Notes under the pieces: generated by a model | Seen by the model: only the letters and a program-made list of their open reading frames with translations | Told to the model about the DNA's origin: nothing | The model's database searches: none | NCBI GenBank assembly: GCA_028376655.1 | Contig: JAONAZ010000007.1 | Location: 1-54,114 of the forward strand | DNA: 54,114 nucleotides | From: Acidimicrobiia bacterium | GTDB taxonomy: Bacteria; Actinomycetota; Acidimicrobiia; Actinomarinales; Actinomarinaceae | Direction: 5' to 3' | Translations under genes and position numbers: made by a program | Part shown: piece by piece, positions 6,985-54,099 of the stretch | Layout of the letters: the number at the start of each line of letters is the position of its first letter | Position numbering within the stretch: the first letter of the stretch is position 1

Positions 6985-6990
6985 TAACTT
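6985..6990 (+). promoter_or_regulatory. Putative -10 (TAACTT) for leaderless lepA
   Basis: TAnnnT with first T 13 nt before ATG 6998. Confidence 0.4.
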
Positions 6991-6997
6991 AATAGTG

Positions 6998-8776
6998 ATG
7001 TTACATAATAAAAATATAAGAAATATTTCAATAATTGCACATGTAGATCATGGTAAATCTACTTTGGCGGATAGACTCATCGAGATATCTGGTTTGATTA
7101 CTCCTGGTGATCATGTTGATCAAATACTAGACACTATGGATCTTGAAAGGGAGCGTGGAATCACAATTAAATCTCAGCCAATTCGATTAAATTTTGGCAA
7201 TATGGAAGTAAATTTGATAGACACTCCTGGCCATGTTGATTTTTCATATGAAGTTTCAAGAGCCTTAATTGCATGCGATGGCGCCTTATTACTAGTCGAT
7301 GGGACTCAAGGAGTACAGGCCCAAACATTCGCCCATTCGTACGCTGCCATAGAGGCCGGTTTGGATATCATACCTGTAATCAACAAAGTAGACTCAATTG
7401 ATGTTGATATAGAAAATGTTTCAAAGCAGATTTTTAATCTTATCGGTGCTCGTGAAGATGAAATTTTTAAAATTTCAGCAAAAAGTGGATTAGGTGTTGA
7501 TGAGTTAATAAAAGAAATTCCAGATTTAATAAGTCCTCCAGTTACAAAATCAGAAAGTACAAATGCTTTAATCTTTGATTCATATTTCGATCCATACAGA
7601 GGAGTAATTGTCTCGGTAAGAGTCTTTGGGGGAGAAGTCAAAACCAATTCTAAGCTTAAACTAATCAATTCTAAATTTGATTTTGAAGCTTCTGAGATTG
7701 GTTATTTTGATTTAAAATTATCTCCTTCCGATATACTTTCATCCGGAGAAGTAGGGTATATTGTTACAGGTGCAAAAGAGCTTTCTCAAATTAGAGTAGG
7801 AGACACTCTTGTTAACCAAGAAGATACAAATCCTGTAGTTGTATCAGGCTATAAAGAACCTCAACCTACAGTCTTTTCCAGTATGTATCCAGCAGATTCT
7901 GATGATTATGCAAAATTAAGAGATTCTCTAGACAAATATGTACTTAATGATGCAAGTTTTTATTATGAACCTGAAACTTCATCTGCGTTTGGTTTTGGAT
8001 TTAGATGTGGTTTTTTGGGCTTGTTGCATTTAGAAATTGTGATTGAAAGACTAGAACGAGAATTTGATCTTTCACTTATAGTCACACCACCATCGGTTGA
8101 ATTTAGAATTATTCGAAATAATGATGAGAAAATAATAATAAGGAATCCCTCAAAAATTGATAAATATACAGATATTAAATCAATACAAGAAAAAATATGT
8201 GAACTTGATTTACTTTTTCCAAAAGAATACCTGGGCTCAATAATGAATTTGTTAAATGAAAAGAGGGGAACCCAATTAGATCTTAATTATTTAAGTACAT
8301 CCATGGTGAAACTTAAATATCGAATGCCTTTACTGGAGTTAGTTACAGGCTTTTATGACTCTCTTAAGTCAATATCTCAAGGTTTTGCTTCTTTAGATTA
8401 TCAAATCCTTGATTTTGAAACTGGAAATTTAGTAAAATTAGATATATTGGTTAATGGAGTTTCTATTGATTCATTTAGCTCCATACTTGCAAAAGAAAAT
8501 GCTGAATTTGTTGGAAGAAACAGGGTTAAAAAACTATCGGAACTAATTCCAAGGCAACAATTTGATATCCCCATTCAAGCAGCAGTAGGTTCTAGAATTG
8601 TTGCAAGGGAGACCATTAAAGCTCTCAGAAAAGATGTTACAGCTAAATTGTATGGTGGGGACATAACAAGAAAACGTAAACTTCTAGAGAAGCAAAAAGA
8701 AGGTAAAAAGAAAATGCGAAATATTGGAAAGGTCGCAGTTCCGAAAGATGCTTTTAAAGAATTCTTGAGACAATAA
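6998..8776 (+). CDS. lepA: Elongation factor 4 (LepA GTPase)
   Basis: NIRNISIIAHVDHGKSTLADRLIE; LepA C-terminal domain; ORF track begins 6995 (GTG) with ATG at 6998 preferred. Confidence 0.97.
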   Translation: MLHNKNIRNISIIAHVDHGKSTLADRLIEISGLITPGDHVDQILDTMDLERERGITIKSQPIRLNFGNMEVNLIDTPGHVDFSYEVSRALIACDGALLLVDGTQGVQAQTFAHSYAAIEAGLDIIPVINKVDSIDVDIENVSKQIFNLIGAREDEIFKISAKSGLGVDELIKEIPDLISPPVTKSESTNALIFDSYFDPYRGVIVSVRVFGGEVKTNSKLKLINSKFDFEASEIGYFDLKLSPSDILSSGEVGYIVTGAKELSQIRVGDTLVNQEDTNPVVVSGYKEPQPTVFSSMYPADSDDYAKLRDSLDKYVLNDASFYYEPETSSAFGFGFRCGFLGLLHLEIVIERLEREFDLSLIVTPPSVEFRIIRNNDEKIIIRNPSKIDKYTDIKSIQEKICELDLLFPKEYLGSIMNLLNEKRGTQLDLNYLSTSMVKLKYRMPLLELVTGFYDSLKSISQGFASLDYQILDFETGNLVKLDILVNGVSIDSFSSILAKENAEFVGRNRVKKLSELIPRQQFDIPIQAAVGSRIVARETIKALRKDVTAKLYGGDITRKRKLLEKQKEGKKKMRNIGKVAVPKDAFKEFLRQ

Positions 8777-9408
8777 TGCATACACCAACAATATTCGATG
8801 ATAATTATGAATCTGAAAAAAAAGAATATCTTATTACTAAAGAAAAGTTACATCATTTGCAAAATGTACTCAGAATAAAGAATAACTCTCATATTAGAGT
8901 CACCAATGGAATGGGTCTTGTTTCTCTTGGTAAAATATCAGACTCATACTTAATAATTGAAGAAAATAAAATCCACCAAAGAACCAATGATGTTCATGTA
9001 TTCATATCAAAACTTCAAGATAAAACAAGAATGAGACACTTAATTGAAAAGTTAACCGAACTTGGTGTAAAAGGAATAACATTGGGAAAAACTGAAAATT
9101 CACAAAAAGTAAATATAGAACATAAAAAAGTCAATAATTGGGTAATTGGAGCAGTAGAGCAATCAGGTATAGCTTTTGCACCAAAAATATCAATTGAAAA
9201 ACAACTTGATTTTGATAAGTTTCAACACACTTTTGATATCACCGGAGAAAGTCTTAATAAAAATATTAATTTTACAAGTTTTGCAATTGGTCCTGAAGGA
9301 GGGTGGAGTAAAAAAGAATTAGAAAACTTTAAATATATTTCTAAATTGAGTAATTTTACTTTAAGATCTGATACTGCAGCTATAGTTGCAGTATCCTTAA
9401 TGATGTAG
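8776..9408 (+). CDS. rsmE: 16S rRNA (uracil1498-N3)-methyltransferase family
   Basis: IGPEGGWSKKELENF and LRSDTAAIVAVSLM RsmE motifs. Confidence 0.9.
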   Translation: MHTPTIFDDNYESEKKEYLITKEKLHHLQNVLRIKNNSHIRVTNGMGLVSLGKISDSYLIIEENKIHQRTNDVHVFISKLQDKTRMRHLIEKLTELGVKGITLGKTENSQKVNIEHKKVNNWVIGAVEQSGIAFAPKISIEKQLDFDKFQHTFDITGESLNKNINFTSFAIGPEGGWSKKELENFKYISKLSNFTLRSDTAAIVAVSLMM

Positions 9409-9416
9409 GATTATAT

Positions 9417-9758
9417 ATGGAACAAAAATCAGTATTTGAAATGATTCTTAATAAAGAAATTGAATCTGAAATTATCTATGAAGATGATGAAATATTTGCC
9501 ATTAATGATACTAATCCAGTAGCTCCAGTGCATGTATTAGTAATTCCAAAAAAAAAGATAAAAACTATTAATGAGATTACCCATGATGATGCAATGTTGA
9601 TTGGCAAACTTGTCCTCACGGGAAAGAAACTCGCAAAAGACTTAAAAATTGACAAAAGTGGATATCGATTGTTATGGAATACAAATGACGATGCAATGCA
9701 AACTGTTTTTCATATACATCTACATCTTATAGGTGGAAAACGATTGAAGGCTATCTAA
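9417..9758 (+). CDS. HIT family (HinT-like) protein
   Basis: PVAPVHVLVIPKKKI...FHIHLHLIGGK (HxHxH motif). Confidence 0.93.
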   Translation: MEQKSVFEMILNKEIESEIIYEDDEIFAINDTNPVAPVHVLVIPKKKIKTINEITHDDAMLIGKLVLTGKKLAKDLKIDKSGYRLLWNTNDDAMQTVFHIHLHLIGGKRLKAI

Positions 9759-10690
9759 TGGGTTTTGAAAAGCAAATTCCCTCAAATGTAGAAGTAGTTG
9801 ATATTTTAGGTATCAATGATAAAAATCTTAAATATATTAAATCGGTTTTTCCAAATGTCATGATTAATGTGAGGGGAAATACAATCTATATTGATGGCCA
9901 AGATAATGATGCAAAAGAGATAATGAGAATTTTTGATGAAATGTTACTGATGAATGACAACAATGAAAATATTGAAGAAACTGATGTAGAAATATTATCC
10001 AATATTAAAGATACTCATAAACATGATGGACAGAAAATTAGCTCCCTTTCAGTAATTGATAATAAGTCAATAAAAGTAAAAAATATTAATCAATATAAAT
10101 ACATGAATTTAATGCAAAATTCAACTATAACTTTTGGTATTGGTCCAGCAGGAACAGGGAAGACCTTTTTAGCGGTTGCAGCTGCAGTTAAAATGTATTC
10201 TGAACAAAAAATTAAAAAAATTGTGCTTACAAGACCGGCAGTGGAAGCAGGAGAGAGGTTAGGGTATCTACCAGGAGATTTATCACAAAAAATTGACCCC
10301 TACCTTGTGCCATTATTTGACTCCTTAGAATATTTTTTTGGTAATGAAACTTTAGCTTATTTGATAGAAAAGCGAAATATTGAAATTGTTCCTTTGGCAT
10401 ATATGAGGGGTAGAACTCTTAACAATGCGTGTATAATTTTGGATGAAGCACAAAATGCAACTATGAGTCAAATTAAAATGTTTTTAACAAGATTAGGAGA
10501 AAATTCAAAAATAATCATCACAGGAGATGAGTCTCAAATAGACCTTTACAGCAAAGATAATTCAGGTCTTAAAAAAACTAGAACAATACTCTCAAAAATA
10601 GATGAAATTAATGTTATGGAATTTCAAAACACTGATATTGTAAGAAATCCTATTGTTTCAAAGATTTTAGAAATATTTCCAGATAAATGA
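9758..10690 (+). CDS. PhoH-like ATPase
   Basis: FGIGPAGTGKTFLAVAAAVK; LTRPAVEAGERLGYLPGDL; upstream of ybeY. Confidence 0.94.
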   Translation: MGFEKQIPSNVEVVDILGINDKNLKYIKSVFPNVMINVRGNTIYIDGQDNDAKEIMRIFDEMLLMNDNNENIEETDVEILSNIKDTHKHDGQKISSLSVIDNKSIKVKNINQYKYMNLMQNSTITFGIGPAGTGKTFLAVAAAVKMYSEQKIKKIVLTRPAVEAGERLGYLPGDLSQKIDPYLVPLFDSLEYFFGNETLAYLIEKRNIEIVPLAYMRGRTLNNACIILDEAQNATMSQIKMFLTRLGENSKIIITGDESQIDLYSKDNSGLKKTRTILSKIDEINVMEFQNTDIVRNPIVSKILEIFPDK

Positions 10691-12858
10691 TTTCTAATTA
10701 CCTCCTCCATGCCAGAAAGTTAATGTACGTAATAATTTTTGGTGGTTTAGTTTGGTTTATTTCTTTTACTATATTTCCCGAGAATCAAATAATAAAAATT
10801 AGTGTGGGAGATGTCTCTCCTATAACATTTTCAGCACCTAATTACATAGAGATAATTGATGAAGAACAGACTGTAGTAAATAAACAAGTTGCAATTGATT
10901 CTGTAAACCCAATTTACTCCATAGATACAAAAATTAATGATTCTGTAATTGCAGGTGTTAAAGATATGTTTCTTGCTGTTATTGAAGCTAGAGTTTCTGA
11001 GACCTTAATAGTTAGTGATTCAGATATAGTTGATGAGAATACACAACCAGAAGTAAAAATTACAAACCTCACAAAACTACAACAAATCAAGAAGATTACA
11101 GAATTACTTTTATTTTCAACAATATCTACCTCGACAGTTGAGGTATTAGTTGAAATTTCAAATTATGATTTAGTAAATAAAACTAACTATCTATCACAGC
11201 TTGAGTTAGAAGCAAAAAGTCAGGCAAATGAAATATTAAACAATGGTATAAATAATGAGAATTTAAATGGACTAAGACAAAGTATTGTATCAAACCCTCC
11301 TTATTTGGATTTAACTAGTGACCTTTTCTTGTTGATACCCGAAAATCGTTTAAGGAGTACTGTTTCAGAAATAATTGCAGAGAATCTTGTCTCTAATCAA
11401 AAATTAGAGGAAGATTTATGGAATAGTAAAAAACAGCAAATTTCAGATTCGGTAGAGTCAGTAATCGTAAAGTTTTTTGAAAATGACTTGGTTATTCAAG
11501 AAGGAAATCCTGTAAGTCAAATTCAATATAATGCACTTGATAGTTTTGGTTATCTTTCTGGTGAATCACGAACTATCCAAACGGCTGCTCTACCTATTAT
11601 ATTTTCGATCTTTCTATTGATATATTTTTTATTCTGGAGATTTAATGACTCCGTCTGGAATAATGATAAAGAATTTTTATTATTACTAACTTTGATCCTT
11701 GTGGCATCTGTATTTTTAAGAGGAACATCATATTTTTCACAGACTTTAGAGCTTGATTATTTAAAATATGGCGTTCCAATTTCTTTTGTCGGTGTTGTTT
11801 CAGCTACATTATTAAACCTAAGAGCAAGCCTTGTATTGTCACTTTCGAGTGCTTTATTGGCCCTTGCCGGTGGAGGTAATATTGGTCTTTTAGCTTTAGG
11901 GGGTATTCTTTCTATTCTTCCATCAGTATTTATCTCTGAAGATATAGATAGAAGACTTTTACGTGAAAGAATAATTTATATTTCATTAACGCAACCAGTT
12001 ATATCTTTTGGGATTTACTTCTTTCTCAGAGAAGATTTCAGCCTATTTGAAGTTTTGATTACTGGTTTGATTGGTGGATTAGTAGCTAACCTGGCTGCAT
12101 TTTCATTGATTACTTATATTGAAGCAGTGTTTAAGATTACAACTAACTTTCGTTTGTCTGAACTTGCAGATAGAAATCACCCAGGATTACGATATCTTGA
12201 AGAAAAAGCATTGGGAACATTCAACCACTCTCTGGTCGTAGGTACTTTAGCTGATAGGGCTGCAAATGTAATAAATGCTAACGCACAACTTGCTAGAGCT
12301 ATGGCTTATTTTCATGATTTAGGTAAAACAGAAAATCCATCAATGTTTATAGAAAATCAATTTGGATCAAGTAACCCACATGATACATTGTCAACACAGG
12401 ATTCTTCAAATATTATTAGAGCGCATGTTACCGATGGAGTTAAGTTGGCTAAAAAATTTAAAATACCAGAAATTGTTTACTCAGGAATTATAGAACATCA
12501 CGGAGACTCTGTAATGAGATTCTTTTATGAAAAAGAAAAAACTGAAAATCCGAATGTAGATAAAAGTGATTTTAGACATTTAGGTAGAAAACCTACATCA
12601 AAAGAAACAGTAATTCTGATGTTTGCTGATGCCCTCGAAGGCGCATGCAGAGCAAGATTTTTAAACGAAGATGCAGATGAAGAAAAAATTAAAAATGTTA
12701 TTGATGAAATATTCAATGAAAAAATTTTAGATGGCCAGTTAGAAAATTCACCAATTACATTTTCTGATATTGATAAAATTAAAAAATCTTTCCAAAAAAG
12801 TTTAGAAGGTCTTTACCACCAAAGAGTAATGTATCCTGAAATATCAGAAGAAGAGTAA
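10687..12858 (+). CDS. 7TM-HD phosphodiesterase (PgpH-like; putative c-di-AMP hydrolase)
   Basis: Large extracytoplasmic domain, seven TM segments, HDIG-type domain (GTFNHSLVVGTLADRAA... AYFHDLGK...); PhoH-PgpH-YbeY order. Confidence 0.88.
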   Translation: MISNYLLHARKLMYVIIFGGLVWFISFTIFPENQIIKISVGDVSPITFSAPNYIEIIDEEQTVVNKQVAIDSVNPIYSIDTKINDSVIAGVKDMFLAVIEARVSETLIVSDSDIVDENTQPEVKITNLTKLQQIKKITELLLFSTISTSTVEVLVEISNYDLVNKTNYLSQLELEAKSQANEILNNGINNENLNGLRQSIVSNPPYLDLTSDLFLLIPENRLRSTVSEIIAENLVSNQKLEEDLWNSKKQQISDSVESVIVKFFENDLVIQEGNPVSQIQYNALDSFGYLSGESRTIQTAALPIIFSIFLLIYFLFWRFNDSVWNNDKEFLLLLTLILVASVFLRGTSYFSQTLELDYLKYGVPISFVGVVSATLLNLRASLVLSLSSALLALAGGGNIGLLALGGILSILPSVFISEDIDRRLLRERIIYISLTQPVISFGIYFFLREDFSLFEVLITGLIGGLVANLAAFSLITYIEAVFKITTNFRLSELADRNHPGLRYLEEKALGTFNHSLVVGTLADRAANVINANAQLARAMAYFHDLGKTENPSMFIENQFGSSNPHDTLSTQDSSNIIRAHVTDGVKLAKKFKIPEIVYSGIIEHHGDSVMRFFYEKEKTENPNVDKSDFRHLGRKPTSKETVILMFADALEGACRARFLNEDADEEKIKNVIDEIFNEKILDGQLENSPITFSDIDKIKKSFQKSLEGLYHQRVMYPEISEEE

Positions 12859-12859
12859 C

Positions 12860-15288: not shown

Positions 15289-15289
15289 T

Positions 15290-16933: not shown

Positions 16934-16956
16934 TTCATAGTATTATTAATTTGCTA

Positions 16957-17028: not shown

Positions 17029-17094
17029 CAAATTATTGTCAACAGATTTATAATCATGTATATAATTAAATAATAAATAGTTATTAGGAGGAAT

Positions 17095-17385
17095 ATGTCA
17101 GAAGCGTTAGATTTTGTAAAGAAAAATATGGAGGGAAAAGACCTCAGTATTTTACCTGGGTCAATAAAGTGGGTTGTTGACTCTCAAATAGTGTATATGA
17201 GTCCTGAGGGTAGTGAAGTAACTGAAGAGGATGCTGAAGCAGCCTGTACCATTACAACCAATATGGAAACATTTAAAGGTATGTATGATAAATCCGTTAG
17301 TCCCCAAGCAGCTTTTATGACAGGGAAGATTAAAATTGCAGGAGATATGGGGATTGCACTTAAGTTGCAGTCAGTCATAGGATAG
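17095..17385 (+). CDS. SCP2 sterol-binding-domain protein (single domain)
   Basis: CTITTNMETFKGMYDKSVSPQAAFMTGKIKIAGDMGIALKLQ typical SCP2 C-terminus; AGGAGG SD. Confidence 0.88.
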   Translation: MSEALDFVKKNMEGKDLSILPGSIKWVVDSQIVYMSPEGSEVTEEDAEAACTITTNMETFKGMYDKSVSPQAAFMTGKIKIAGDMGIALKLQSVIG

Positions 17386-17390
17386 AATCA

Positions 17391-20601: not shown

Positions 20602-20607
20602 TATAAT
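20602..20607 (+). promoter_or_regulatory. Putative -10 (TATAAT) for leaderless nucleotidyltransferase gene
   Basis: Perfect -10 consensus, first T 13 nt before GTG 20615. Confidence 0.6.
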
Positions 20608-20614: not shown

Positions 20615-21337
20615 GTGAATAAAATTAAAACAGTAATAGCTGCTGGGGGTTTAGGAACTCGTTTGCAAGGATTTAGAGGCAACGATTCAACTAAAATTTT
20701 ATTAGAAGTCGACGGCTCTCCCATGATTGTCAGGCAAATTGAACAACTTTCAAAATGGGGATTAGAAGAATTCATAATAATTACCAATCCTTCCTTTGAT
20801 GAATTAATTAAAGGTGTAATTACTTCACACTTTAAAGAAAAAAATATAAGTTTTACTATTCAACATGAACAAAAAGGGATTTCACACGCATTAAAATGTG
20901 CTGAGGAATATATCCACCCAGGGGACACAGTTTTTTTTATTTTAGGAGATAATTTTTTTGAAAATAATCCTTCCGAAAATTTGAATATGCAAGATTTAGC
21001 TAAAAATAAAGGTGCTTATATATTTTCTTATAAAGTAAACAATCCCGAAGAGTTCGGAGTTGCTGAATTAGACTCTAGAAATAATGTGATATCTATTGAA
21101 GAGAAACCTACTAATCCAAAATCGAATCAAGCCGTAGTTGGTGTATATATTTACGATGATACTGTAATGGATAAAATTTCAATCCTTAAACCTTCTAAGC
21201 GCGGGGAGTATGAAGTCACAGATTTAAATAATTTATATATTCAAGAGGGAAAATGTAAAAATGTTTCAATTTCAGGATGGTGGATCGATGCAGGCACCCC
21301 GGACAGAATAATCGAGCTGGAATCAAAACTAACTTAG
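20615..21337 (+). CDS. Sugar nucleotidyltransferase (RmlA/GlmU-N-like)
   Basis: TVIAAGGLGTRLQGFRGNDSTKILLEVDGSPMI; GWWIDAGTPDRI; GTG start. Confidence 0.88.
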   Translation: MNKIKTVIAAGGLGTRLQGFRGNDSTKILLEVDGSPMIVRQIEQLSKWGLEEFIIITNPSFDELIKGVITSHFKEKNISFTIQHEQKGISHALKCAEEYIHPGDTVFFILGDNFFENNPSENLNMQDLAKNKGAYIFSYKVNNPEEFGVAELDSRNNVISIEEKPTNPKSNQAVVGVYIYDDTVMDKISILKPSKRGEYEVTDLNNLYIQEGKCKNVSISGWWIDAGTPDRIIELESKLT

Positions 21338-22363: not shown

Positions 22364-23442
22364 TCTAGCACATCCAATTCTTGATATATCTTTTCGAACC
22401 TTAAAGCTACTTCTTTCGATGAATATAACTGCTCAATTAATTCAGTATTCTTAGAATTATCGGCAACGCCATTAAAATTTTTAATCAATTCAGCAAATTG
22501 GTCTATTTGATTTAATTTAATCAACTCAAGATTTGTAAAATCTTCCATAACTTCAGTACCTTGAATCTTATATGCCAGGCAGTAAAGCCCTACATATAGA
22601 GATTCAAGAAGAATTCTTGAGAAACCCTCATGTGATGACATGATTATAGATATATCAAAATTTGATAATTCCCTTTCTACCTCAATCTCACCTAAGTAGT
22701 TTAGGTTTTCTGTGAGTAGAATTCTTTGCATGTCTTCATCATTTATATTTTGGGGATTTCCCTCATCACGTTCACCAGCTAAATAGAACTCATAATTTTC
22801 ATTCTTTAGTCTGTTAACTAGATTTAAGTAATCAAGAATGCCTTTATCGTATAAAAGTCTTGAAACCAGAATGATTTTTCTTTTTTCTTGATGGTTCATG
22901 TTCTCTTTTCTTTTTTTAAAATTACCAATTTCAATCCCAGAGCTAGGTATTATTTCTACTTTATTTGAAAATTTAGAATAACTAAGAAATATCTCTTTAT
23001 CTGTATGATTCTGAAATATAATTACTTTGAAAGAATTACTAAATAATTGTCTTATTAAAGGTTTTATTAAAATTTTCAACAATTTTGCTCGTCTATTATT
23101 ACTGAACAAAAATCCTAAACCAGTAATTGATAAAACTGCTTTACTTCTATTTTTTAGAAAGATACTAGCTATTGAAAAAATTATGCCAGTTTTCAAGGTA
23201 AAGCAATGAAATTTAGTTTCTGCATCTTTTAATTGAGCTCTAAGATTTAATACAGCCTGAATATCTAGAATTTTTTCTCTATTTATATTCCAAGAGTATA
23301 CATTCTCATATGTATTTTTTAATTCCTCAGTAAATTTACCATCTGGACACATTGCATTAATTTTTTCAGATTTAATATGTTTAATTAAATCTTTTCTTGA
23401 TTTATATAATATCCAGTCCCAGTGAGATAAATAAGTTATCAT
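22360..23442 (-). CDS. Glycosyltransferase family 4
   Basis: MITYLSHWDWILYKSRKDL N-terminus; ILVSRLLYDKGILDYL; SSHEGFSRILLESL. Start moved from track (23475) to ATG at 23442. Confidence 0.85.
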   Translation of the reverse strand: MITYLSHWDWILYKSRKDLIKHIKSEKINAMCPDGKFTEELKNTYENVYSWNINREKILDIQAVLNLRAQLKDAETKFHCFTLKTGIIFSIASIFLKNRSKAVLSITGLGFLFSNNRRAKLLKILIKPLIRQLFSNSFKVIIFQNHTDKEIFLSYSKFSNKVEIIPSSGIEIGNFKKRKENMNHQEKRKIILVSRLLYDKGILDYLNLVNRLKNENYEFYLAGERDEGNPQNINDEDMQRILLTENLNYLGEIEVERELSNFDISIIMSSHEGFSRILLESLYVGLYCLAYKIQGTEVMEDFTNLELIKLNQIDQFAELIKNFNGVADNSKNTELIEQLYSSKEVALRFEKIYQELDVLD

Positions 23443-23449: not shown

Positions 23450-23455
23450 ATTTTA
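23450..23455 (-). promoter_or_regulatory. Putative -10 (TAAAAT) for leaderless GT4 gene
   Basis: First T 13 nt before revised ATG at 23442 (minus strand). Confidence 0.5.
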
Positions 23456-27804: not shown

Positions 27805-27822
27805 AACATAAAGTCTATTAAG

Positions 27823-28786: not shown

Positions 28787-29785
28787 TTATTTCTTTATAT
28801 AAGTTAATGATTTTAGCAACTCTAAATTTTCAAGGTACCACTCTACAGTTTTTTCTATTCCGTCCTCTATTAAAGTAGTAGGTTCCCAGTCAAGCGTTTG
28901 TTTTATATGGCTTAAATCTGGCTTTACAACATCTGGGTCTTTCATAGCTCTCTCCTTATTGACCACAATGGAGTTAATGCCAGTACTTTTTTCTATTAAT
29001 TCAATAACACGATTAAGAGTTACAGTATTATTTGAACCAATGTTAAAGGTATCAGAAGAAGTATGACTCATCACTTTTACTAAAGCTGAAACCACATCAT
29101 CAACATAAGTAAATGATCTTCTCTGTTCCCCATCTCCGAAAACTTGTACTTCCTCTTTATTTATTATCCAGTGAATAAATCGTAGAATAGACATATCAGG
29201 TCTACCGTATGGTCCATAAACTGTAAAAAATCTTGGTATTAAAACTTTTGTATTAGATTCATCAAGTATTGTTTTAGCCAATATTTCGCCAGATAGTTTT
29301 GTACTTGCATACACGGAGGGAGGTTGAATTCTTTCATCCTTATTTTCCCTCATTAAACTTTCACCACTGTCACCATAAATTGAGGATGTGGATGCAAGTA
29401 TTAAGGAAGAAATCTCAGTTAGTTTACAATAATTAGCCACATTTGTGGTGGCAACTGTATTGTCAAGTACATAGCTATATGGATCCAAAAAACTTTGCCT
29501 AACACCTGCACGAGCAGCCATGTGGTAAAAAACTTGTGCGTCGGAGTTTATTTCATGAAGTTGTGAAATAGAGTCAGGATTTGATAAATCTAATTGATGA
29601 AATTCATATTTTTCATTATTTTTAAGTTCACCTATTCTTAAACTTTTTAATTTTACATCGTAAGCATCGTTAAGGGAATCAACACCTATTACTTCATAAC
29701 CCGCATGAAGAAGTTTGTTTGCAAGATGAAAGCCAATAAATCCAGCTGTTCCGGAGATGATTACTTTGTTATTCACAATAAACAT
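28787..29785 (-). CDS. UDP-glucuronate 4-epimerase-like SDR
   Basis: GTAGFIGFHLANKLLHAGYEVIGVDSLNDAYDVKLKSLRIGEL; RAGVRQSFLDPYSYVLDN; FFTVYGPYGRPDMS. Confidence 0.85.
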   Translation of the reverse strand: MFIVNNKVIISGTAGFIGFHLANKLLHAGYEVIGVDSLNDAYDVKLKSLRIGELKNNEKYEFHQLDLSNPDSISQLHEINSDAQVFYHMAARAGVRQSFLDPYSYVLDNTVATTNVANYCKLTEISSLILASTSSIYGDSGESLMRENKDERIQPPSVYASTKLSGEILAKTILDESNTKVLIPRFFTVYGPYGRPDMSILRFIHWIINKEEVQVFGDGEQRRSFTYVDDVVSALVKVMSHTSSDTFNIGSNNTVTLNRVIELIEKSTGINSIVVNKERAMKDPDVVKPDLSHIKQTLDWEPTTLIEDGIEKTVEWYLENLELLKSLTYIKK

Positions 29786-29792
29786 GCTACCA

Positions 29793-29798
29793 AAAATA
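29793..29798 (-). promoter_or_regulatory. Putative -10 (TATTTT) for UDP-GlcA epimerase-like gene
   Basis: First T 13 nt before ATG at 29785 (minus strand). Confidence 0.4.
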
Positions 29799-29848
29799 TA
29801 TTTAATTCTGTAAAAAGATTTAAATAGTATTTATATAATTTTAAAAAG

Positions 29849-29854
29849 TAGAAT
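29849..29854 (+). promoter_or_regulatory. Putative -10 (TAGAAT) for wzy-like gene
   Basis: First T 13 nt before GTG 29862. Confidence 0.5.
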
Positions 29855-29861
29855 TTTAATA

Positions 29862-31061
29862 GTGGAATTATTACTTAAAAAACTTAAACGTCTTTCGCCC
29901 TTAAATATTCTATTTTTTATACCACTTATACCGCACTTTAACATTTTCGAGGACGTTTTCCATACTGATGACATACCTGTACTGCTATTTCTTATCTTGT
30001 TTTTCACTAGAGTTATGTCTTTATTTGATAACTTCAAACCAATTAAAGGGTACCTGCTTATTGATTTCTTTATTATGTACCTGTTAATTCAGAATATTTA
30101 TCTTGGAAATGGTTTTTTTAATAACGAAATACTAAGGTTTGCATTTTATGCAATTATTTTCTTTTTTATCTTAGGAAATAAAATGGAAAGTTTCTATGAA
30201 TCTTTACCTGTATATCTTTTTATTTTTTGTAGTAGTTTTTCAATTATTGCATATTTCTTTTCCATTAATTTAGGGACAGATCTTTACAACAATTGGAATA
30301 TAGGCCTCAATCTTAGTGATATTGACTATATCAAAGGCAGGGTAAACGGTTTTCAAGCAGGAGGTCCCAATAGTTATGCCGATCTAATTACTGTGACTGG
30401 AATCTATACAATTTTTAAATTAGAAGATAATTATTTTCCATACATTTCAAGTCTTGCAATTTTGGGATGTTTCTTTACATACTCAAGATTTTCACTAATT
30501 GTATTAATTATTTTTATTATTCTCAGAGCTTTAAGCACCCAAAATAAAATGTTAAGTTTAGGCATTATTTTTGCCTCCATCTTTGTTTGTGCCAATTTCG
30601 GATTAATTGAAAGATTTAGCAATGATGATAATTCAGGTATCCAGGACAGAGTTGATATGAGTATTGGAGCATGGGAATATTTTCTTGATGATACACTTCT
30701 TAATAATCTTATTGGTAGGGGCCACGATAGTTTTATTGTCAGTGGAGACGAAATAATCAACAGTAATAACTTTGATCAAAATACAGTATCTTATGGTCCG
30801 CATAATTCTTTTTTATTCATTATTTTAAATTATGGAGTCTTTGGATTGATTCTGTATTTATTGATATTTAAAAATATAATTATCTACACACTTAGATTAA
30901 AAACTTTATTTAACCTATCACCACATTTTTATGTAGTAGCTGCTTTTTTTGTTTTAAGTTTTTCTAGTGATATATTACAGAATCACAGTATTTCTTGGTA
31001 TTTATACTTATCAAGCTTTCTTTTAATGAGAGAAATCAATATAGATTCTTTCGATGTTTAA
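29862..31061 (+). CDS. Wzy/O-antigen-ligase-like membrane protein (no large insertion)
   Basis: Multiple TM; RVNGFQAGGPNSYADL parallels GFQGGGPN in the 17466 ORF; GPHNSFLFIILNYGVFGLI. Confidence 0.75.
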   Translation: MELLLKKLKRLSPLNILFFIPLIPHFNIFEDVFHTDDIPVLLFLILFFTRVMSLFDNFKPIKGYLLIDFFIMYLLIQNIYLGNGFFNNEILRFAFYAIIFFFILGNKMESFYESLPVYLFIFCSSFSIIAYFFSINLGTDLYNNWNIGLNLSDIDYIKGRVNGFQAGGPNSYADLITVTGIYTIFKLEDNYFPYISSLAILGCFFTYSRFSLIVLIIFIILRALSTQNKMLSLGIIFASIFVCANFGLIERFSNDDNSGIQDRVDMSIGAWEYFLDDTLLNNLIGRGHDSFIVSGDEIINSNNFDQNTVSYGPHNSFLFIILNYGVFGLILYLLIFKNIIIYTLRLKTLFNLSPHFYVVAAFFVLSFSSDILQNHSISWYLYLSSFLLMREINIDSFDV

Positions 31062-31090: not shown

Positions 31091-31096
31091 TACTAT
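31091..31096 (+). promoter_or_regulatory. Putative -10 (TACTAT) for SDR gene
   Basis: First T 13 nt before ATG 31104. Confidence 0.55.
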
Positions 31097-31103: not shown

Positions 31104-32036
31104 ATGAAAATATTAGTAGTTGGTGGCGCAGGTTATGTTGGTGGAGGTATTGTTGACAAATTAGTTCCTAACCATGAGGTAACAGTCTATGACTCACTTG
31201 TATATGAGACTTCTTATAGGAAAGATGTTAATTTTATTTATGGAGATATAAGAGATCATAAAAAACTTAATTCTATTTTAAACAATTATGACTCTGTAAT
31301 TTGGCTAGCTGCCCTTGTTGGAGACGGAGCTTGTAGTATCAACCCGAGCCTCACGCAAGAAATAAACGCAGAGAGTGTAAAAAACTTGACCAAAAACTAC
31401 TCAGGAAGAATCGTTTTTCTCTCAACTTGCTCTGTTTACGGAGCACAAGAAGGAGTATTATCTGAAGACTCTGCTACAAATCCACTTTCAGAATATGCCA
31501 GTTCAAAACTAATTGCAGAAAAGTATTTAGAAGATTCAAATGTTATAATTTTTCGCCTTGGAACACTATTTGGAATAAGTGATCAGTATTCAAGAATTAG
31601 ACTTGATTTAGTTGTTAACATACTTGTAACCAAAGCACTGATGGAAAATAAGATGAGCGTTTTTGGCGGGGATCAATGGAGACCTCTTTTACACGTAAAT
31701 GATGTTGCAAATGCAATTGATGTAACTATAGAGACCCAGGTAAATGGAATATTTAACCTACACTATCAAAATTTCAAAATAATAGAAATAGCTGAGGAAA
31801 TTGAAAAAAAAATAACTACAGCGGAAATTATCAAAACGCCATTGGAGTTCCAAGATGCAAGAAATTATCAAGTAACAAGTGAAAAGCTTCATAAAGAGAC
31901 TGGATTCAAGGCTGAAGTAGATTTAAAGGTAGGTATAGATGAGATTTATGAGTTGATATCTAAGAACAGAATAAAAGATATTACTGATCCCAGATATTCA
32001 AATCAAAATTTTCTTAATTTATATGGAGTAAAATAA
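31104..32036 (+). CDS. NAD-dependent epimerase/dehydratase (SDR)
   Basis: MKILVVGGAGYVGGGIV; WLAALVGDGACSINPSLTQEIN; YASSKLIAEKYL. Confidence 0.85.
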   Translation: MKILVVGGAGYVGGGIVDKLVPNHEVTVYDSLVYETSYRKDVNFIYGDIRDHKKLNSILNNYDSVIWLAALVGDGACSINPSLTQEINAESVKNLTKNYSGRIVFLSTCSVYGAQEGVLSEDSATNPLSEYASSKLIAEKYLEDSNVIIFRLGTLFGISDQYSRIRLDLVVNILVTKALMENKMSVFGGDQWRPLLHVNDVANAIDVTIETQVNGIFNLHYQNFKIIEIAEEIEKKITTAEIIKTPLEFQDARNYQVTSEKLHKETGFKAEVDLKVGIDEIYELISKNRIKDITDPRYSNQNFLNLYGVK

Positions 32037-35706: not shown

Positions 35707-36320
35707 CTTGCACCTTTCCTGGTAACTACATAATAAAAAGTTAAAAATATAATTTTCAGATCCACAAATATGGATCTAGTTTTAACATATTCTAAATCCC
35801 AATAAAGTCTTTCTTGTAAGCTTAGATCCAACCGGCCTTGTATTTGAGCTAAGCCTGTAATACCTGGTTTTGCGGTATTCCTTATTTTTTGATGATCTCC
35901 GTAGAGATCTGATTCATATTTTACAAGTGGCCTTGGCCCCACAATTGACATCTCTCCTCGTAAGACATTAATAAGGTTTGGTAATTCGTCTAAGGACGTT
36001 TTTCTGAGAAAATTACCAATATTAGTAATACGATCATCATTTTCAATTCTTATAGGTTTACTCGGAGTTAATGAAGGTTCAATCGTCTCTTTTTTTGAAA
36101 GTTCCTCATAATGCTCTTGATGGACAGTGTCACTAGATAGAGCATCCATTGTTCTAAATTTATACAAAAGAAATGATTTTCCATTTTCACCCACTCTTTG
36201 TTGTTTGTATAAACCAGGAGAACCATCAGATATGTAGATTACTATCAAAATAAGTGGGTAAATTACTAGTAGAACCGGAGAAAATAATAGGGTTATTGTA
36301 ATGTCTAATAGTTTTTTCAT
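35703..36320 (-). CDS. Polyprenyl-phosphate glycosyl-1-phosphate transferase (bacterial sugar transferase, WcaJ/PglC-type)
   Basis: GLYKQQRVGENGKSFLLYKFRTM; TSLDELPNLINVLRGEMSIVGPRPL; KPGITGLAQIQGR. Confidence 0.94.
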   Translation of the reverse strand: MKKLLDITITLLFSPVLLVIYPLILIVIYISDGSPGLYKQQRVGENGKSFLLYKFRTMDALSSDTVHQEHYEELSKKETIEPSLTPSKPIRIENDDRITNIGNFLRKTSLDELPNLINVLRGEMSIVGPRPLVKYESDLYGDHQKIRNTAKPGITGLAQIQGRLDLSLQERLYWDLEYVKTRSIFVDLKIIFLTFYYVVTRKGAS

Positions 36321-36376: not shown

Positions 36377-36382
36377 TAGAGT
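36377..36382 (+). promoter_or_regulatory. Putative -10 (TAGAGT) for asnB-like gene
   Basis: First T 13 nt before ATG 36390. Confidence 0.45.
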
Positions 36383-43680: not shown

Positions 43681-44607
43681 AACAGGATTCCAGTCTTCTA
43701 TGTATGCCAAGCTGTAAAATGGTTCTTTTTTAGCATCTAATGCATCTTTAATACATGTAGTGGCAGATTCAATATCCCCGGGTATATATTTAATTGAATT
43801 AGAAATATCAAAATGCTCCATATATGCAGAATCAGGAGCCACCACAAACAGACCAGCGGAGCTCGCTTCATATAAAGGTAGTCCAACAGTTTCATAATGG
43901 CTTGTATGTAAATAGATACTGTGATTAGGAAATTCTTCAAGTAATAAAGTTGATTTATTTTCTGATTTTTTTTGATTTTCTTCTGATATAAACTTTGTTA
44001 TTTTTAGATTAGGATTATCAACCTTCAGTTTCTTAAGTACAGCATCCATAAAGCTAGAATTTTTATTTTTAATTAGACTCTGTATGCTTATTATTCCAGT
44101 TTCAGAATTTATGTCATTTGCAAACTTCTCAATCACACCAATTTTTAATAATTTGTTACTGAATTGATTATGTATTTCTTCAGCAACATGGTCAAGTTGG
44201 TAAATTATATGATCACTATCTTTAAATGATTTATTTATAAAGTATCTTAAAATTAGATTCTTCAGGTCTTTAACTTTTAGTGGAAGCAAGTTCTGGATCA
44301 GAGTGTATGATTTATTTTTAGTTTTAAAGCCAAAATTGCCAAAATGGATTATTGCTTCAGATTCGTTAATCATATTCATATCTTTTTTACTTAAGAAAAT
44401 ATTGAGATAGGGATGAAAATATCTATTTAAACTTGTTTCTATTTTTTGCACATTAGAGTCTTTATCTAAATCATCTAAGAAATAATTATCGTGTAGAAGT
44501 ATTATTTTGTAATTTGACTTTTCAATAAAATTTAAAGCACTTTTAACTACAACTTTCCCACCAAGCGATTTTACACCACATATATTAAGTACAATACTCT
44601 TATCCAT
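43666..44607 (-). CDS. Glycosyltransferase-like protein
   Basis: HTSHYETVGLPLYEASSAGLFVVAPDSAYMEHF (GT4-type C-terminal motif). Confidence 0.65.
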   Translation of the reverse strand: MDKSIVLNICGVKSLGGKVVVKSALNFIEKSNYKIILLHDNYFLDDLDKDSNVQKIETSLNRYFHPYLNIFLSKKDMNMINESEAIIHFGNFGFKTKNKSYTLIQNLLPLKVKDLKNLILRYFINKSFKDSDHIIYQLDHVAEEIHNQFSNKLLKIGVIEKFANDINSETGIISIQSLIKNKNSSFMDAVLKKLKVDNPNLKITKFISEENQKKSENKSTLLLEEFPNHSIYLHTSHYETVGLPLYEASSAGLFVVAPDSAYMEHFDISNSIKYIPGDIESATTCIKDALDAKKEPFYSLAYIEDWNPVLKSI

Positions 44608-44614
44608 TAATTCA

Positions 44615-44620
44615 ATAATA
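44615..44620 (-). promoter_or_regulatory. Putative -10 (TATTAT) for glycosyltransferase gene
   Basis: First T 13 nt before ATG at 44607 (minus strand). Confidence 0.5.
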
Positions 44621-44648
44621 GTTCCTTATTAACAACTAATTGTATGAC

Positions 44649-44654
44649 TAAAAT
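44649..44654 (+). promoter_or_regulatory. Putative -10 (TAAAAT) for wecB
   Basis: First T 12 nt before GTG 44661. Confidence 0.5.
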
Positions 44655-44660
44655 CATTAT

Positions 44661-45740
44661 GTGGTTAAAAATAGTTATGATGTTGCTTTAGTTGTCGGTA
44701 CGAGACCAAATTTTATAAAAGCTGCTCCTTTAGTGAAATGTTTTGAGAGTAAGAATTTAGATGTCTTATTTATTCACACTGGCCAACACTGGGATAAGAA
44801 TCTTTCAGGAAATATATTTACAGATCTTGAATTAAGGGAACCTGATATAAACCTAGAAACCCCCCTTGATGGAATGAATCATCAATTGAGTTATATGATT
44901 AAGAGCTTAGATGCAACGTTAAGTAAATGTAGTGTTCCAAGAGTAGGTGTTTTTGGTGACGTAACTTCAACTCTTGCAGCCGCTTTAGTTACTAAAAATA
45001 GAGATTTAGAATTATTTCATGTTGAGTCAGGTTTAAGATCCAGAAATCTGAATATGCCAGAAGAAAGAAATAGGCTAGCTGTTGACACAATAAGTGACTA
45101 CTTATTTACACCATCTGATGATGCTGTTAAAAATCTACTTGATGAAAATATTGGAAAAGAAAAAATATTTAATGTTGGAAACATAATGATTGATACCCTT
45201 AAGGCTAACTTGGATAAAATTCAGAATTCAAAAAATACCGTTATTGATGAATTAGGAATCAATGAACCCTACTTCGTTATGACTATCCACAGGCCGTCAA
45301 ATCTATCTAATGAAGCATTAAGTGGCATCTTTGCTGCATTAGATTCATTCAAGAAAGAATATAAAATATTAATACCAGCCCATCCAAGGCTATCTCAATT
45401 TATTGAAAAAAATGACTTACAATTCGAAAATTTTATTTTTATAGATCCACTGCCTTACATTAAATTCTTAGGTTTAGTTTCAGGTGCAAAATTAGTATTA
45501 ACCGACTCTGGAGGTCTCCAAGAAGAGACAACGTATCTTAATATAAGATGTTTAACTTTAAGAGAAGAAACAGAGCGACCAATTACTGTATTTGAAGGAA
45601 CAAATAAAGTTATCGGTATAAATACAGAAGTAATAATTAATGAAATAAATAGTTCATTAGGCAGTAAACTACCAAATGAAATTAATATTAAAAATTGGGA
45701 TGGTCTCACATCATCAAGAATTTATGATGTTTTGTATTAG
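44661..45740 (+). CDS. wecB: UDP-N-acetylglucosamine 2-epimerase (non-hydrolysing)
   Basis: VVGTRPNFIKAAPLVK; HTGQHWDKNLSGNIF; HVESGLRSRNLNMPEERNR; LTDSGGLQEE; GTG start. Confidence 0.93.
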   Translation: MVKNSYDVALVVGTRPNFIKAAPLVKCFESKNLDVLFIHTGQHWDKNLSGNIFTDLELREPDINLETPLDGMNHQLSYMIKSLDATLSKCSVPRVGVFGDVTSTLAAALVTKNRDLELFHVESGLRSRNLNMPEERNRLAVDTISDYLFTPSDDAVKNLLDENIGKEKIFNVGNIMIDTLKANLDKIQNSKNTVIDELGINEPYFVMTIHRPSNLSNEALSGIFAALDSFKKEYKILIPAHPRLSQFIEKNDLQFENFIFIDPLPYIKFLGLVSGAKLVLTDSGGLQEETTYLNIRCLTLREETERPITVFEGTNKVIGINTEVIINEINSSLGSKLPNEINIKNWDGLTSSRIYDVLY

Positions 45741-45746
45741 AGGTAT

Positions 45747-47009: not shown

Positions 47010-47011
47010 CA

Positions 47012-49462: not shown

Positions 49463-50581
49463 TAAATCTCTTAGTTCAAAATGCATTTCGTCAGGTGAGG
49501 TCCAAGTACCTCCCCACGCAAATCCCCATGAATTAAAAATTTCGACTACTCGAGGAACGTATCCTGATTTAGTATTTATATCTATTGCTATTCCCCAAGC
49601 ATGTCTTGATATCGAACCACCAGCATCAAAACGTGAAATTCTCCTTGGAGCATAACAACCCCCAGAAGTTCTAAATTCCTCTGTAAATAAGGTATCAGCA
49701 AGGCCTTCTTCGTCTATCTGATTTAGCGCACCTCTAAGTGGCTCCCACATTAATCTATGACAAGTTGTCCTTCCAATAATTGGCATCCTTATGGTTTGGA
49801 TATTTTCTTCTCTCCATTTTGGTTCGGTGATAATCCACGTTCCATCTTTTTCTTTAAGTTGGAAGTCGCCAAATATTTCTTTTACCAGCGCATTAGGAAG
49901 TACCCAATTTTTGTTTGGTTTAGAACTTTCATCAGAAACTCTTATTTTTTTATATTTAATATTTCGATAAATTTCAATTAAATGGTTCTCAGTAATTTTG
50001 TTATCCCAGATGATTGCCTGGATATTTCTATAAATACCAAGTTTAAATCCTATTTCTTTGTTTACTACTGCTTCAAACCATCCCAATTTTGAATCAGGAA
50101 CGATATCACCTACAACTAATTCTATAGGGTCTCCGTTGATGCCTACTAAATGAATAACATCTCCAATTTCAATAGCGTATAAATTTGCTGTCAATTCAGA
50201 GACAATAATTAAATTGTTGTTTATTTTATCCGCCAATTCAGTTGGATATATAAAGTTTGCGAAATCTTTTTCTACAGTCTTAATAGAGACACTGTAAAGA
50301 TAATCAGTTTTTGTATTGAGTTTCTGATTTCCAGCTTGGTCCGTAATTTTTTCTAGTCCAACGTTAGCTCTACCAATAAAGCTTAAATTTGTGTCAAGAT
50401 TTTTTACACTTTCAATTATTTCGTTGGTTACGCTATAAAATAAACTTCCTGATTGAGAAATAGTTATGGTCTGATAATTATCAAGTCTATTTTTTCTTTC
50501 GTAAGTTACCTCTTCGTGAGCATAAGCTACAGAGGGTACACAAGTTATTACCAGTAGAATTAACCAAAAGTATTTTTTCAT
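49433..50581 (-). CDS. Secreted M15 (D-Ala-D-Ala carboxypeptidase-like) peptidase
   Basis: Signal peptide MKKYFWLILLVITCVPSVAYA; SRHAWGIAIDINTKSG; DEMHFELRD. Confidence 0.85.
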   Translation of the reverse strand: MKKYFWLILLVITCVPSVAYAHEEVTYERKNRLDNYQTITISQSGSLFYSVTNEIIESVKNLDTNLSFIGRANVGLEKITDQAGNQKLNTKTDYLYSVSIKTVEKDFANFIYPTELADKINNNLIIVSELTANLYAIEIGDVIHLVGINGDPIELVVGDIVPDSKLGWFEAVVNKEIGFKLGIYRNIQAIIWDNKITENHLIEIYRNIKYKKIRVSDESSKPNKNWVLPNALVKEIFGDFQLKEKDGTWIITEPKWREENIQTIRMPIIGRTTCHRLMWEPLRGALNQIDEEGLADTLFTEEFRTSGGCYAPRRISRFDAGGSISRHAWGIAIDINTKSGYVPRVVEIFNSWGFAWGGTWTSPDEMHFELRDLSASISKTSG

Positions 50582-50588
50582 CTTTGCT

Positions 50589-50594
50589 ATTTTA
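50589..50594 (-). promoter_or_regulatory. Putative -10 (TAAAAT) for M15 peptidase gene
   Basis: First T 13 nt before ATG at 50581 (minus strand). Confidence 0.5.
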
Positions 50595-50609
50595 CAGTAA
50601 TTAAAAAAT

Positions 50610-50663
50610 AGTATTACTTTAGAAAGCTGTGAAAAAGCTAAGAAAGTTATTTCTAAAGTTACT
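50610..50663. repeat. Intergenic inverted repeat (10-bp perfect arms ACTTTAGAAA/TTTCTAAAGT, extended by AGTA/TACT with a 2-nt bulge)
   Basis: Arms at 50616-50625 and 50650-50659, outer AGTA 50610-50613 and TACT 50660-50663. Confidence 0.8.
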
Positions 50664-50716
50664 TATTAAACAAGAGATTTATTATTATAAAACCTTGAAT
50701 ATAAGGAGAAAGCTTA

Positions 50717-53311
50717 ATGAAAGTCCTCACTAATTTTTTCGGTTCTGCAGCTACTAAAAGACCTGTGATAACAATTTTAGTTGTATTATTACTTACTGGT
50801 TTTTTCGGCTATATGGCTACTCAAGCTGAAGAACTTAGTACTAGTTTTGGTGGTGAATTAGATACACCTGAAATTCAAGCACAGTCAAAATTAGGTGATT
50901 ATTTTGCTTCATCTGGGGGTCAAAGTGTTTTTCAAATCATAATGACCGGCGATGACGTTTTAACTGTTGATGGTTATAAAGCCTGGCTTGAGATCCAAGA
51001 AGTTGTGGCTAGTAGTGAAATTTCAAATTATCTTATAAGCCAACCTGGCCAAGGAGCTGTACAAGGTTTCTTTGGTCCAATAGATTTTGCCAGAGCATTT
51101 AATCCAATGTTTAATATCGACCAGATGAATGATGAACAATTCAAACAAGCATACAAAGCTGCCTCTTCTCAAATGCCTCCAGAATTTCAAGCATTTGCTT
51201 CTGCACTACTTTCAGAGAACTATGATTCGGATAAGGTAACCTCAACCGCTGGCTTAGCAATAGTGACTATTAATTCAGCAAAAATTGCTGAAGATTTTGG
51301 TGGTAGTGACGGTGCCTTTATTGAACAGCCCCGAATGGAAGTTCAACTTAGTGAATCTTTAAATGAAATTACTGCGAAATATGAGACAATAAAAGTTAGT
51401 GGATTTTCTTTTGGACTTTTATTAGGAAATGATGGCGACGATTTCTTGAACGAGATAGGAGTTCTATTTGGGAAGGCATTTCTAATTATTCTAGGTGTTC
51501 TAGCTTATATATTTTTTATTAGACCAAGAAAAGGTTATGGTTTCTTCAAGTCATCAAGAAGAACTATTAGTGATTTACTTTTAAGTTTAGGAACTATACT
51601 TCTTTCAATTGGATGGATGCAGGGTATGGGTACTCTTTTGGGGCCAGGATTTTTAAATATTATTGGTGCTCCTAATCAGATATCCCAAATAGCTCCAATT
51701 CTTTTAATAGGTTTGGGTGTAGATTATGCAATTCATTTTACAGGCAGATACAGAGAAGAATTAGGCAATGGACTTTCAGTAAAAGAGTCTACAACAAACA
51801 CTCTTAGCTCTGTAGGTATCGCTTTGACACTTGCAACTTTGGCCACAATTGTTGGATTTCTTTCAAATGTTGTTTCACCTCTACCTGAATTTAAAGATTT
51901 TGGTATAACAGTATCATTTGGAATCTTGTTTGCTTTGTTACTTGTTATGACTTTCGTGCCAGCAATAAGATCGTTATTAGATAAAAAAGCAGAAACAAAA
52001 GACTCTATAAGTAGAGAGGCATTTTCATCATCTGGCGAAAGCATCTTAAATAAAGTAGCTGGGGCAAGTTCCATAATACCTAGAAAATTAAAAGTAATAA
52101 GCATCGCTTTATTGGTAGGTGTATCGAGTTATGGGTATATTAGTTTTACAAACCTAGATACAGTCTTTAACTTTACAGATTTTCTCCCTGAAGATGATCC
52201 AGTAGTAGCTACTCTGACAGTTTTGACTGATGAATTTGGTGGAGGTTTCGGCGAGACAACTTCAGTCTTACTTGAGGGTGAAAACTTAGCAACTCCAGAA
52301 ATACATAATGCAATAATTGATGCCATTAATGGCTTAGCTGGCGCAGAGAACATTGTAGTATTCGGTGAAAATGTTGCTAATGAGTCTGTTGTTGCTTCTC
52401 TTGGTGCATTGCTTGCTCCCCAAGATACAATTCCAGGCGCGCCACCACAAGCTCCCGATATGGAACTAATTTCAGGTTTAATGTCTTATGGTGTTGAACT
52501 TCTAAATGGTGAGGGTTTAGATGCAATGAAAGTATCAGCTAACGGAGATGTAGATTCACTATACAAATATCTATTATCCTCCGACCCTGCAACCTTTGGA
52601 GGCACACTGTATTTAGACGATAAAGAGGTTTTTACTGCACAGCAAATTAAAATTACAACTTCAGCAGGTTCAGAAGGCTCAAGACAGTTAACTGAAGATA
52701 TATATAATGCGTTTCAGACAGTTATAGATCTCGGAGTAGATGTTGCGGCTACTAACGATAGTATTGTAACAAACAGTGTAAGTGATCTAATTTCAGCGTC
52801 ACAATTTCAGTCTTTAATTTTTGCAATACTATCATCAATGCTCTTTTTGATAATTTATTATTGGATTGACTTAAAAAGGCCTTTCTTAGGTGTGGTTACC
52901 ATTTTTCCTGTTATTGCAATAGTTATGGGTACATACTTAGGGATGAGTTTATTAGAAATACCTTTAAACCCAGTTACTGCAACTTTAACAGGTATAGCAA
53001 TAGGTATTGGAGTGCCATTTGTTATTCACGTTACTAATAGATTTAGAGAGGCTTTAGATAAGGACTCAAATCCACTAAGCGCAATAACAACTACTCTTAA
53101 AACAACAGGAGGATCCTTATTCGGCTCAGCATTTACTACTATGGCTGGGTTTGGAATTCTGACAACCTCAACACTTAAACCATTTCAACAAATGGGACAA
53201 GTCGTGCTAGTTTCTATAGGCTTTGCCTTAGTAGCTTCAATTTTGATTCTGCCAACATTGCTTGTTTTATGGGCTAATTATCATAATAAAAAAACTGCTA
53301 AATCTTTATAA
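50717..53311 (+). CDS. MMPL/RND-family transporter
   Basis: 864 aa; two TM blocks; LLIGLGVDYAIHFTGRYREEL and AIGIGVPFVIHVTNRFREAL; AAGGAG SD. Confidence 0.9.
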   Translation: MKVLTNFFGSAATKRPVITILVVLLLTGFFGYMATQAEELSTSFGGELDTPEIQAQSKLGDYFASSGGQSVFQIIMTGDDVLTVDGYKAWLEIQEVVASSEISNYLISQPGQGAVQGFFGPIDFARAFNPMFNIDQMNDEQFKQAYKAASSQMPPEFQAFASALLSENYDSDKVTSTAGLAIVTINSAKIAEDFGGSDGAFIEQPRMEVQLSESLNEITAKYETIKVSGFSFGLLLGNDGDDFLNEIGVLFGKAFLIILGVLAYIFFIRPRKGYGFFKSSRRTISDLLLSLGTILLSIGWMQGMGTLLGPGFLNIIGAPNQISQIAPILLIGLGVDYAIHFTGRYREELGNGLSVKESTTNTLSSVGIALTLATLATIVGFLSNVVSPLPEFKDFGITVSFGILFALLLVMTFVPAIRSLLDKKAETKDSISREAFSSSGESILNKVAGASSIIPRKLKVISIALLVGVSSYGYISFTNLDTVFNFTDFLPEDDPVVATLTVLTDEFGGGFGETTSVLLEGENLATPEIHNAIIDAINGLAGAENIVVFGENVANESVVASLGALLAPQDTIPGAPPQAPDMELISGLMSYGVELLNGEGLDAMKVSANGDVDSLYKYLLSSDPATFGGTLYLDDKEVFTAQQIKITTSAGSEGSRQLTEDIYNAFQTVIDLGVDVAATNDSIVTNSVSDLISASQFQSLIFAILSSMLFLIIYYWIDLKRPFLGVVTIFPVIAIVMGTYLGMSLLEIPLNPVTATLTGIAIGIGVPFVIHVTNRFREALDKDSNPLSAITTTLKTTGGSLFGSAFTTMAGFGILTTSTLKPFQQMGQVVLVSIGFALVASILILPTLLVLWANYHNKKTAKSL

Positions 53312-53321
53312 AATTAGTTAT

Positions 53322-53327
53322 TACTAT
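53322..53327 (+). promoter_or_regulatory. Putative -10 (TACTAT) for nif3-like gene
   Basis: First T 13 nt before GTG 53335. Confidence 0.5.
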
Positions 53328-53334
53328 TAATTGA

Positions 53335-54099
53335 GTGAAAGTATTTGAATTACTAGATTTAATCAATGAGATTTGTCCACTTGAGGATGCCTTTGAAGAT
53401 GACAAAGTAGGTTTACTGATAGGTTCAGGACAAAATACAATATCAGGAATAGTAGTAGTTCACGATTTAGACAATTCTGCTCTTCAGCACTGCAAAGAAC
53501 ATAATATAAATACTGTAATTTCTTACCATCCTGCGACATATAAAAAATTTGACGATTTAAATGAAGATTTAATGTTCTCAAAGTTATCTTTAGATTTTTA
53601 CAAAGAGAATATAAATGTAATTTCTATACATACCGCCCAAGATGTTTGCAAGGGTGGAAATGGAGATACTTTAAGTAAAATTTTTAATCTTACAAATGTT
53701 GGTATTTTTGGAAAAACAACAGCTGAAAAAGGCGTTGGGAGAATTGGTACTATTAACAAACATAATGCAAATTCTCTAAATGGATTAATAGAAGCTACAT
53801 TATCTACAAAAATCATCAGAACCAATAGTTATTTTCAAAAACAAGAAGACATACAAACAATAGCTTTTGTACCCGGGTCTGGTACACAATTTCTTAATGA
53901 GGTATTAGGAAAAGTGGATGTATTTATAACTGGAGATGCGTCACACCATCATTTTTTGCTTTCTGATGAAAACAACATGGGTTTTGTTCAACTTAGTCAT
54001 ATATCGACAGAAAAACCAGGAATGCAATCTTTTGTTAATAAATTAAACAAAATTTTAGATTTAGACATAAAATATTTGTATAACGAATATTATGAATGA
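53335..54099 (+). CDS. Nif3-like dinuclear metal center protein
   Basis: SYHPATYKKFDDL; ISIHTAQDVCKGGNGDTLS; DVFITGDASHH; GTG start. Confidence 0.9.
   Translation: MKVFELLDLINEICPLEDAFEDDKVGLLIGSGQNTISGIVVVHDLDNSALQHCKEHNINTVISYHPATYKKFDDLNEDLMFSKLSLDFYKENINVISIHTAQDVCKGGNGDTLSKIFNLTNVGIFGKTTAEKGVGRIGTINKHNANSLNGLIEATLSTKIIRTNSYFQKQEDIQTIAFVPGSGTQFLNEVLGKVDVFITGDASHHHFLLSDENNMGFVQLSHISTEKPGMQSFVNKLNKILDLDIKYLYNEYYE

Follow-up and report, generated by a model that had tools for sequence, protein, structure and literature searches.

The hexamer TAnnnT, located 12 or 13 nt upstream of start codons throughout a genome assigned to Candidatus Actinomarina, very probably represents the -10 box of sigma-A promoters yielding leaderless or near-leaderless mRNAs. 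Widespread leaderless transcription had been proposed in a first-pass annotation of one stretch of this genome. The position of the hexamer, its enrichment at the heads of transcription units, its exclusion of Shine-Dalgarno (SD) sites and TTG start codons, its conservation in orthologues and its presence in the class all support this proposal, with the transcription start read from the DNA sequence. The stretch in question (the window; 54,114 nt in full) is contig 32 of a genome of 883,079 bases in 34 contigs, with a GC content of 32.6% and a completeness of approximately 79%. The LepA protein encoded in the window is 95% identical to that of Candidatus Actinomarina AG-313-L19. Sugar-nucleotide and glycosyltransferase genes are present between 20 and 45 kb of the window, a region resembling the flexible island for envelope polysaccharides known from the order (PMC7771536).

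Positional Peak of the Hexamer in the Genome

A total of 851 genes were called with the start codon of the longest ORF and sorted by the gap to the upstream neighbor, transcription units being inferred from the intergenic gaps. This gave 331 unit heads, 76 mid-gap genes (same-strand gap of 20-60 nt; 407 genes when combined with the heads) and a short-gap class (20 nt or less). Under the longest-ORF rule these classes have approximate sizes and a part of the starts will be wrong, except for those backed by orthologues. The position of TAnnnT was taken as that of its first T counted upstream from the start codon, and the chance level was derived from dinucleotide shuffles.

Among the 331 heads, TAnnnT was found at -12 in 76 (23%) and at -13 in 39, with 17.6 ± 4 in the shuffles and shuffle maxima of 30 and 28, respectively. 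The peak in the heads was restricted to these two positions. The mid-gap genes behaved similarly, with 25 of 76 (33%) carrying the hexamer at -12 and 10 at -13 when about 3.6 were expected. The first-pass annotation had named the lack of a genome-wide positional peak as grounds for refuting its proposal, and the sharp peak observed speaks against such a refutation. It had also postulated an exact spacing of 13 nt; the fixed position stood, but the mode is -12 with -13 in second place, so the rule should be read as 12-13 nt. Extension of the rule to -14 and -15 was rejected, as the 14 and 22 heads with the hexamer at these positions correspond to the background (16.5 per position), although orthologues do retain a few of the sites at -14.

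Chance TAnnnT hexamers are frequent at 32.6% GC, amounting to approximately 5% per position in the heads, and two of the ten start codons listed initially had been picked to fit the spacing. We nevertheless give practically no credence to a coincidence in an AT-rich genome helped by the choice of starts. The longest-ORF starts, chosen blind to the motif, yielded the 76 sites at -12 against a shuffle maximum of 30, and the start picked for lepA turned out to be the conserved one. The genome-wide peak together with the conservation in orthologues refutes this reading.

Hexamers in the Window

All ten hexamers initially listed at -13 were present, each with its first T 13 nt upstream of the named start codon (Table 1). 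Eight of them precede the start of the longest ORF, while those of lepA and the gene starting at 23442 rely on an alternative start. For lepA, the selection of ATG 6998 proved correct: 16 genus relatives have the hexamer 13 nt upstream of the homologous ATG and lack the upstream GTG (6995). The description of all ten genes as first in their units held in part, as those starting at 31104 and 53335 follow a gene on the same strand after just 42 and 23 nt, respectively, and their status is inferred. Among the 18 testable heads and mid-gap genes of the window, TAnnnT occurred at -13 in eight (shuffle mean 1.19, maximum 7 in 5000).

Table 1. TAnnnT hexamers at -12 or -13 in the window (distance from first T to start codon).
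Hexamer	Positions	Strand	Distance	Start codon	Gene and remarks
TAACTT	6985..6990	+	-13	ATG 6998	lepA; same distance in 16 genus relatives
TATAAT	20602..20607	+	-13	GTG 20615	RmlA-like nucleotidyltransferase
TAAAAT	23450..23455	-	-13	ATG 23442	glycosyltransferase; alternative start required
TAGACT	27812..27817	-	-13	ATG 27804	same-strand gene 18 nt upstream; missing from the first-pass list
TATTTT	29793..29798	-	-13	ATG 29785	NAD-dependent epimerase/dehydratase family
TAGAAT	29849..29854	+	-13	GTG 29862	without NCBIfam match; diverges from the gene at 29785
TACTAT	31091..31096	+	-13	ATG 31104	NAD-dependent epimerase family
TAGAGT	36377..36382	+	-13	ATG 36390	asparagine synthase
TATTAT	44615..44620	-	-13	ATG 44607	no NCBIfam match
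TAAAAT	44649..44654	+	-12	GTG 44661	wecB (first-pass assignment); 53-nt gap to divergent 44607
TAAAAT	50589..50594	-	-13	ATG 50581	position kept in genus orthologues
TACTAT	53322..53327	+	-13	GTG 53335	Nif3/YbgI-like; position kept in genus orthologues

Three genes had been offered as close to the rule, namely wecB (44661, at -12), ugd (23484, at -14) and the gene starting at 36320 on the reverse strand (at -15). Their distances were as given, but the membership of the latter two finds no genome-wide support, -14 and -15 being at background. The SD sites ascribed to the contrast genes were also found: AAGGGG upstream of rpsT, AGGAGG upstream of the gene starting at 17095 (flanked by two tRNAs) and AAGGAG upstream of that starting at 50717.

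The ratio of -13 to -12 sites was 8:1 in the window versus 41:100 elsewhere in the genome (Fisher p = 0.0006, in a window that was singled out for the feature), which is only suggestive of a local skew in favor of -13. Most of the -13 cases, which were counted between 19454 and 53335 of the window, belong to the polysaccharide island or its immediate surroundings. An orthologue of the nucleotidyltransferase gene starting at 20615, found in another genome (G054:C1:215011-215730), contains 12 in-frame stop codons and is a decayed copy.

Conservation of the Position in Relatives

Orthologue pairs of heads and mid-gap genes were compared with two genomes of the same genus; 12 of 18 pairs retained TAnnnT at -12 in one and 10 of 14 in the other, with a background of 0.09-0.35 at other positions. 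The orthologues of the gene starting at 53335 carried the hexamer at -13 in 29 of 29 genus relatives, down to 48% protein identity, and the hexamer itself varied between TACTAT, TAGTAT and TAATAT. For the gene starting at 50581, 27 of the 28 assessable genus relatives had the hexamer at either -12 or -13 in spite of the turnover of the surrounding sequence. Conservation of the position without that of the sequence points to a constraint on spacing.

The peak was also seen beyond the genus, in two relatives from the class Acidimicrobiia with 55% and 68% GC, where it was spread over -12 to -14, and in pooled contigs of Acidimicrobiales/Actinomycetes. No TAnnnT peak was detected in pooled Firmicutes of 35% GC, a pool rich in SD sites. 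The lepA genes of 13 class relatives outside the genus had no TAnnnT at -12 or -13; from these upstream regions, the predicted leaderless state of lepA looks genus-specific.

Probable Promoter Character and Start-Codon Signals

Alignment of the genes on the hexamer produced a logo with a TA(a)(a)(a/c)T core, T at -1 (0.62) and A or G at +1, the last two features fitting a transcript whose 5' end coincides with that of the codon. A search upstream of the hexamers revealed no -35 consensus and no TTGACA, only a weak enrichment of T 22-24 nt before the hexamer. No TAnnnT peak was present in the heads near -30, where the archaeal TATA-type spacing was looked for, and the 16S rRNA is bacterial. Proteins with sigma-70 region 2 numbered one or two in 28 of the 29 genus genomes searched, and the published survey of Actinomarinales genomes counts two sigma factors (PMC7771536); the housekeeping sigma factor would thus be the natural reader of the hexamer. 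None was found in the assembly studied, which is approximately 79% complete, and this most likely reflects missing sequence.

Among the 407 heads and mid-gap genes, SD sites preceded 5 of the 150 genes with the hexamer versus 68 of the 257 others (odds 0.10, p = 2e-10), with no comparable effect at control positions. The start codon TTG was similarly avoided (4 of 150 versus 49 of 257), also when only the orthologue-confirmed starts were counted (0 of 35 versus 11 of 65). In reporter assays in M. smegmatis, ATG and GTG were functional at a leaderless 5' end and TTG was not (PMC4633059). The anti-SD sequence CCTCC is intact in the 16S rRNA, so that both modes of initiation would coexist.

Neither an SD-like site nor the hexamer was found in 189 of the 407 heads and mid-gap genes, so either much of the initiation in this organism is unexplained or starts are misplaced. 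This large remainder, together with the generally A-rich region just upstream of the starts, is what might be expected if the hexamer were an AT-rich enhancer of translation or a non-SD ribosome site in leadered mRNAs, as in Bacteroidota. We consider such a role very improbable, since the motif has the form of a -10 box and keeps an exact position, recurs in the relatives with 55% and 68% GC, and is linked to the space available upstream, being found in 46% of genes with gaps of 10-20 nt versus 3.6% of those with overlapping starts (-4 to -1).

According to the preferred reading, TAnnnT at -12 or -13 would serve the housekeeping sigma factor as its -10 element. RNA polymerase would bind it largely without a conserved -35 element and then melt the DNA, the RNA would begin with the start codon or one base upstream of it, and translation would presumably follow the 70S/IF2-type initiation on leaderless mRNA. 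For the -13 class, an untranslated stretch of one or two bases could precede the codon. A variant in which a real -10 box at many genes directs initiation to a point 1-5 nt upstream of the codon, leaving tiny 5' UTRs, seems rather unlikely but has points in its favor: 39 heads form the second peak at -13, the class relatives range from -12 to -14, and published definitions of leaderless mRNAs accept a start within 5 nt (PMC3898074). The mode at -12, the T at -1 and the A or G at +1 fit instead a start on the codon itself, and the exclusion of TTG fits a 5'-terminal codon. From the excess of hexamers above background (111 of 407 heads and mid-gap genes), the leaderless share may be estimated at approximately 27% of unit heads and would correspond to roughly 17% of all called genes.

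Comparison with Known Systems

Leaderless genes of bacteria have been described with TANNNT approximately 12 bp upstream of the start, and their share averages 19.2% in Actinobacteria (Zheng et al. 2011, PMC3160421). Both the hexamer and the distance from its first T are identical in the genome studied here, and the share is similar. The difference lies in the host: those actinobacteria were described as high GC, whereas Actinomarina has 32.6% GC and belongs to a streamlined order with genomes of about 1 Mb. The resemblance to M. tuberculosis (Cortes et al. 2013, PMC3898074; Shell et al. 2015, PMC4633059) extends to the TANNNT -10 element without a -35 consensus, the pyrimidine followed by a purine at the start, the use of ATG and GTG but not TTG, and a leaderless proportion near one quarter among the genes for which a primary start site is known. 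In M. tuberculosis, leaderlessness was demonstrated by RNA and ribosome mapping, whereas in Actinomarina it is deduced from sequence. No ribosomal, initiation or elongation factor gene is leaderless in M. tuberculosis, unlike lepA (elongation factor 4) of Actinomarina, which appears to be so.

Actinomarina is a further instance of a well-known actinobacterial habit, the motif and the distance having already been described. Our literature search found no description of leaderless starts in the Actinomarina group, and the words "promoter" and "Shine" are both absent from the main text of the published genome survey of the order (PMC7771536). The spacing had been recommended as a means of correcting gene starts, and it worked for lepA; the principle itself is already built into gene finders for leaderless genomes. 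GeneMarkS-2 places starts by upstream patterns that include a leaderless type and predicted 21.6% of bacterial species to be users of leaderless mRNAs (PMC9581028). What is gained is a simple rule by which gene starts and promoters can be located in a marine order that is abundant and uncultured, and an extension of actinobacterial leaderless initiation to approximately 32% GC, which makes the habit independent of high GC.

Hexamers in Compact Intergenic Space

The hexamer was in excess in the short-gap class as well (42 genes with TAnnnT at -12 versus 12 expected), and this excess was confined to gaps of 0-20 nt. It is tempting to speculate that in the very low-GC Actinomarinales streamlining turned the leaderless -10 box into the principal promoter grammar, with promoters squeezed into gaps of 10-20 nt and sometimes onto the upstream stop codon, gene families holding a stable 12- or 13-nt register, and the polysaccharide island favoring 13; taken as a whole, this scenario is doubtful.

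Genes starting 9 nt after a same-strand stop codon in the studied genome (G000) and in G006 and G009 had TAnnnT at -12 in 9 of 10 cases. With a gap of this length the stop codon can itself provide the TA of the -12 hexamer, which raises the chance level to about one third per gene, and it may at the same time belong to the -10 box. Divergent pairs with a hexamer at -12 or -13 on both sides made up 22 of 121 in the studied genome, including 44607-44661 and 29785-29862. In several of them the gap measures 22-90 nt, which would force the two predicted promoters to overlap.
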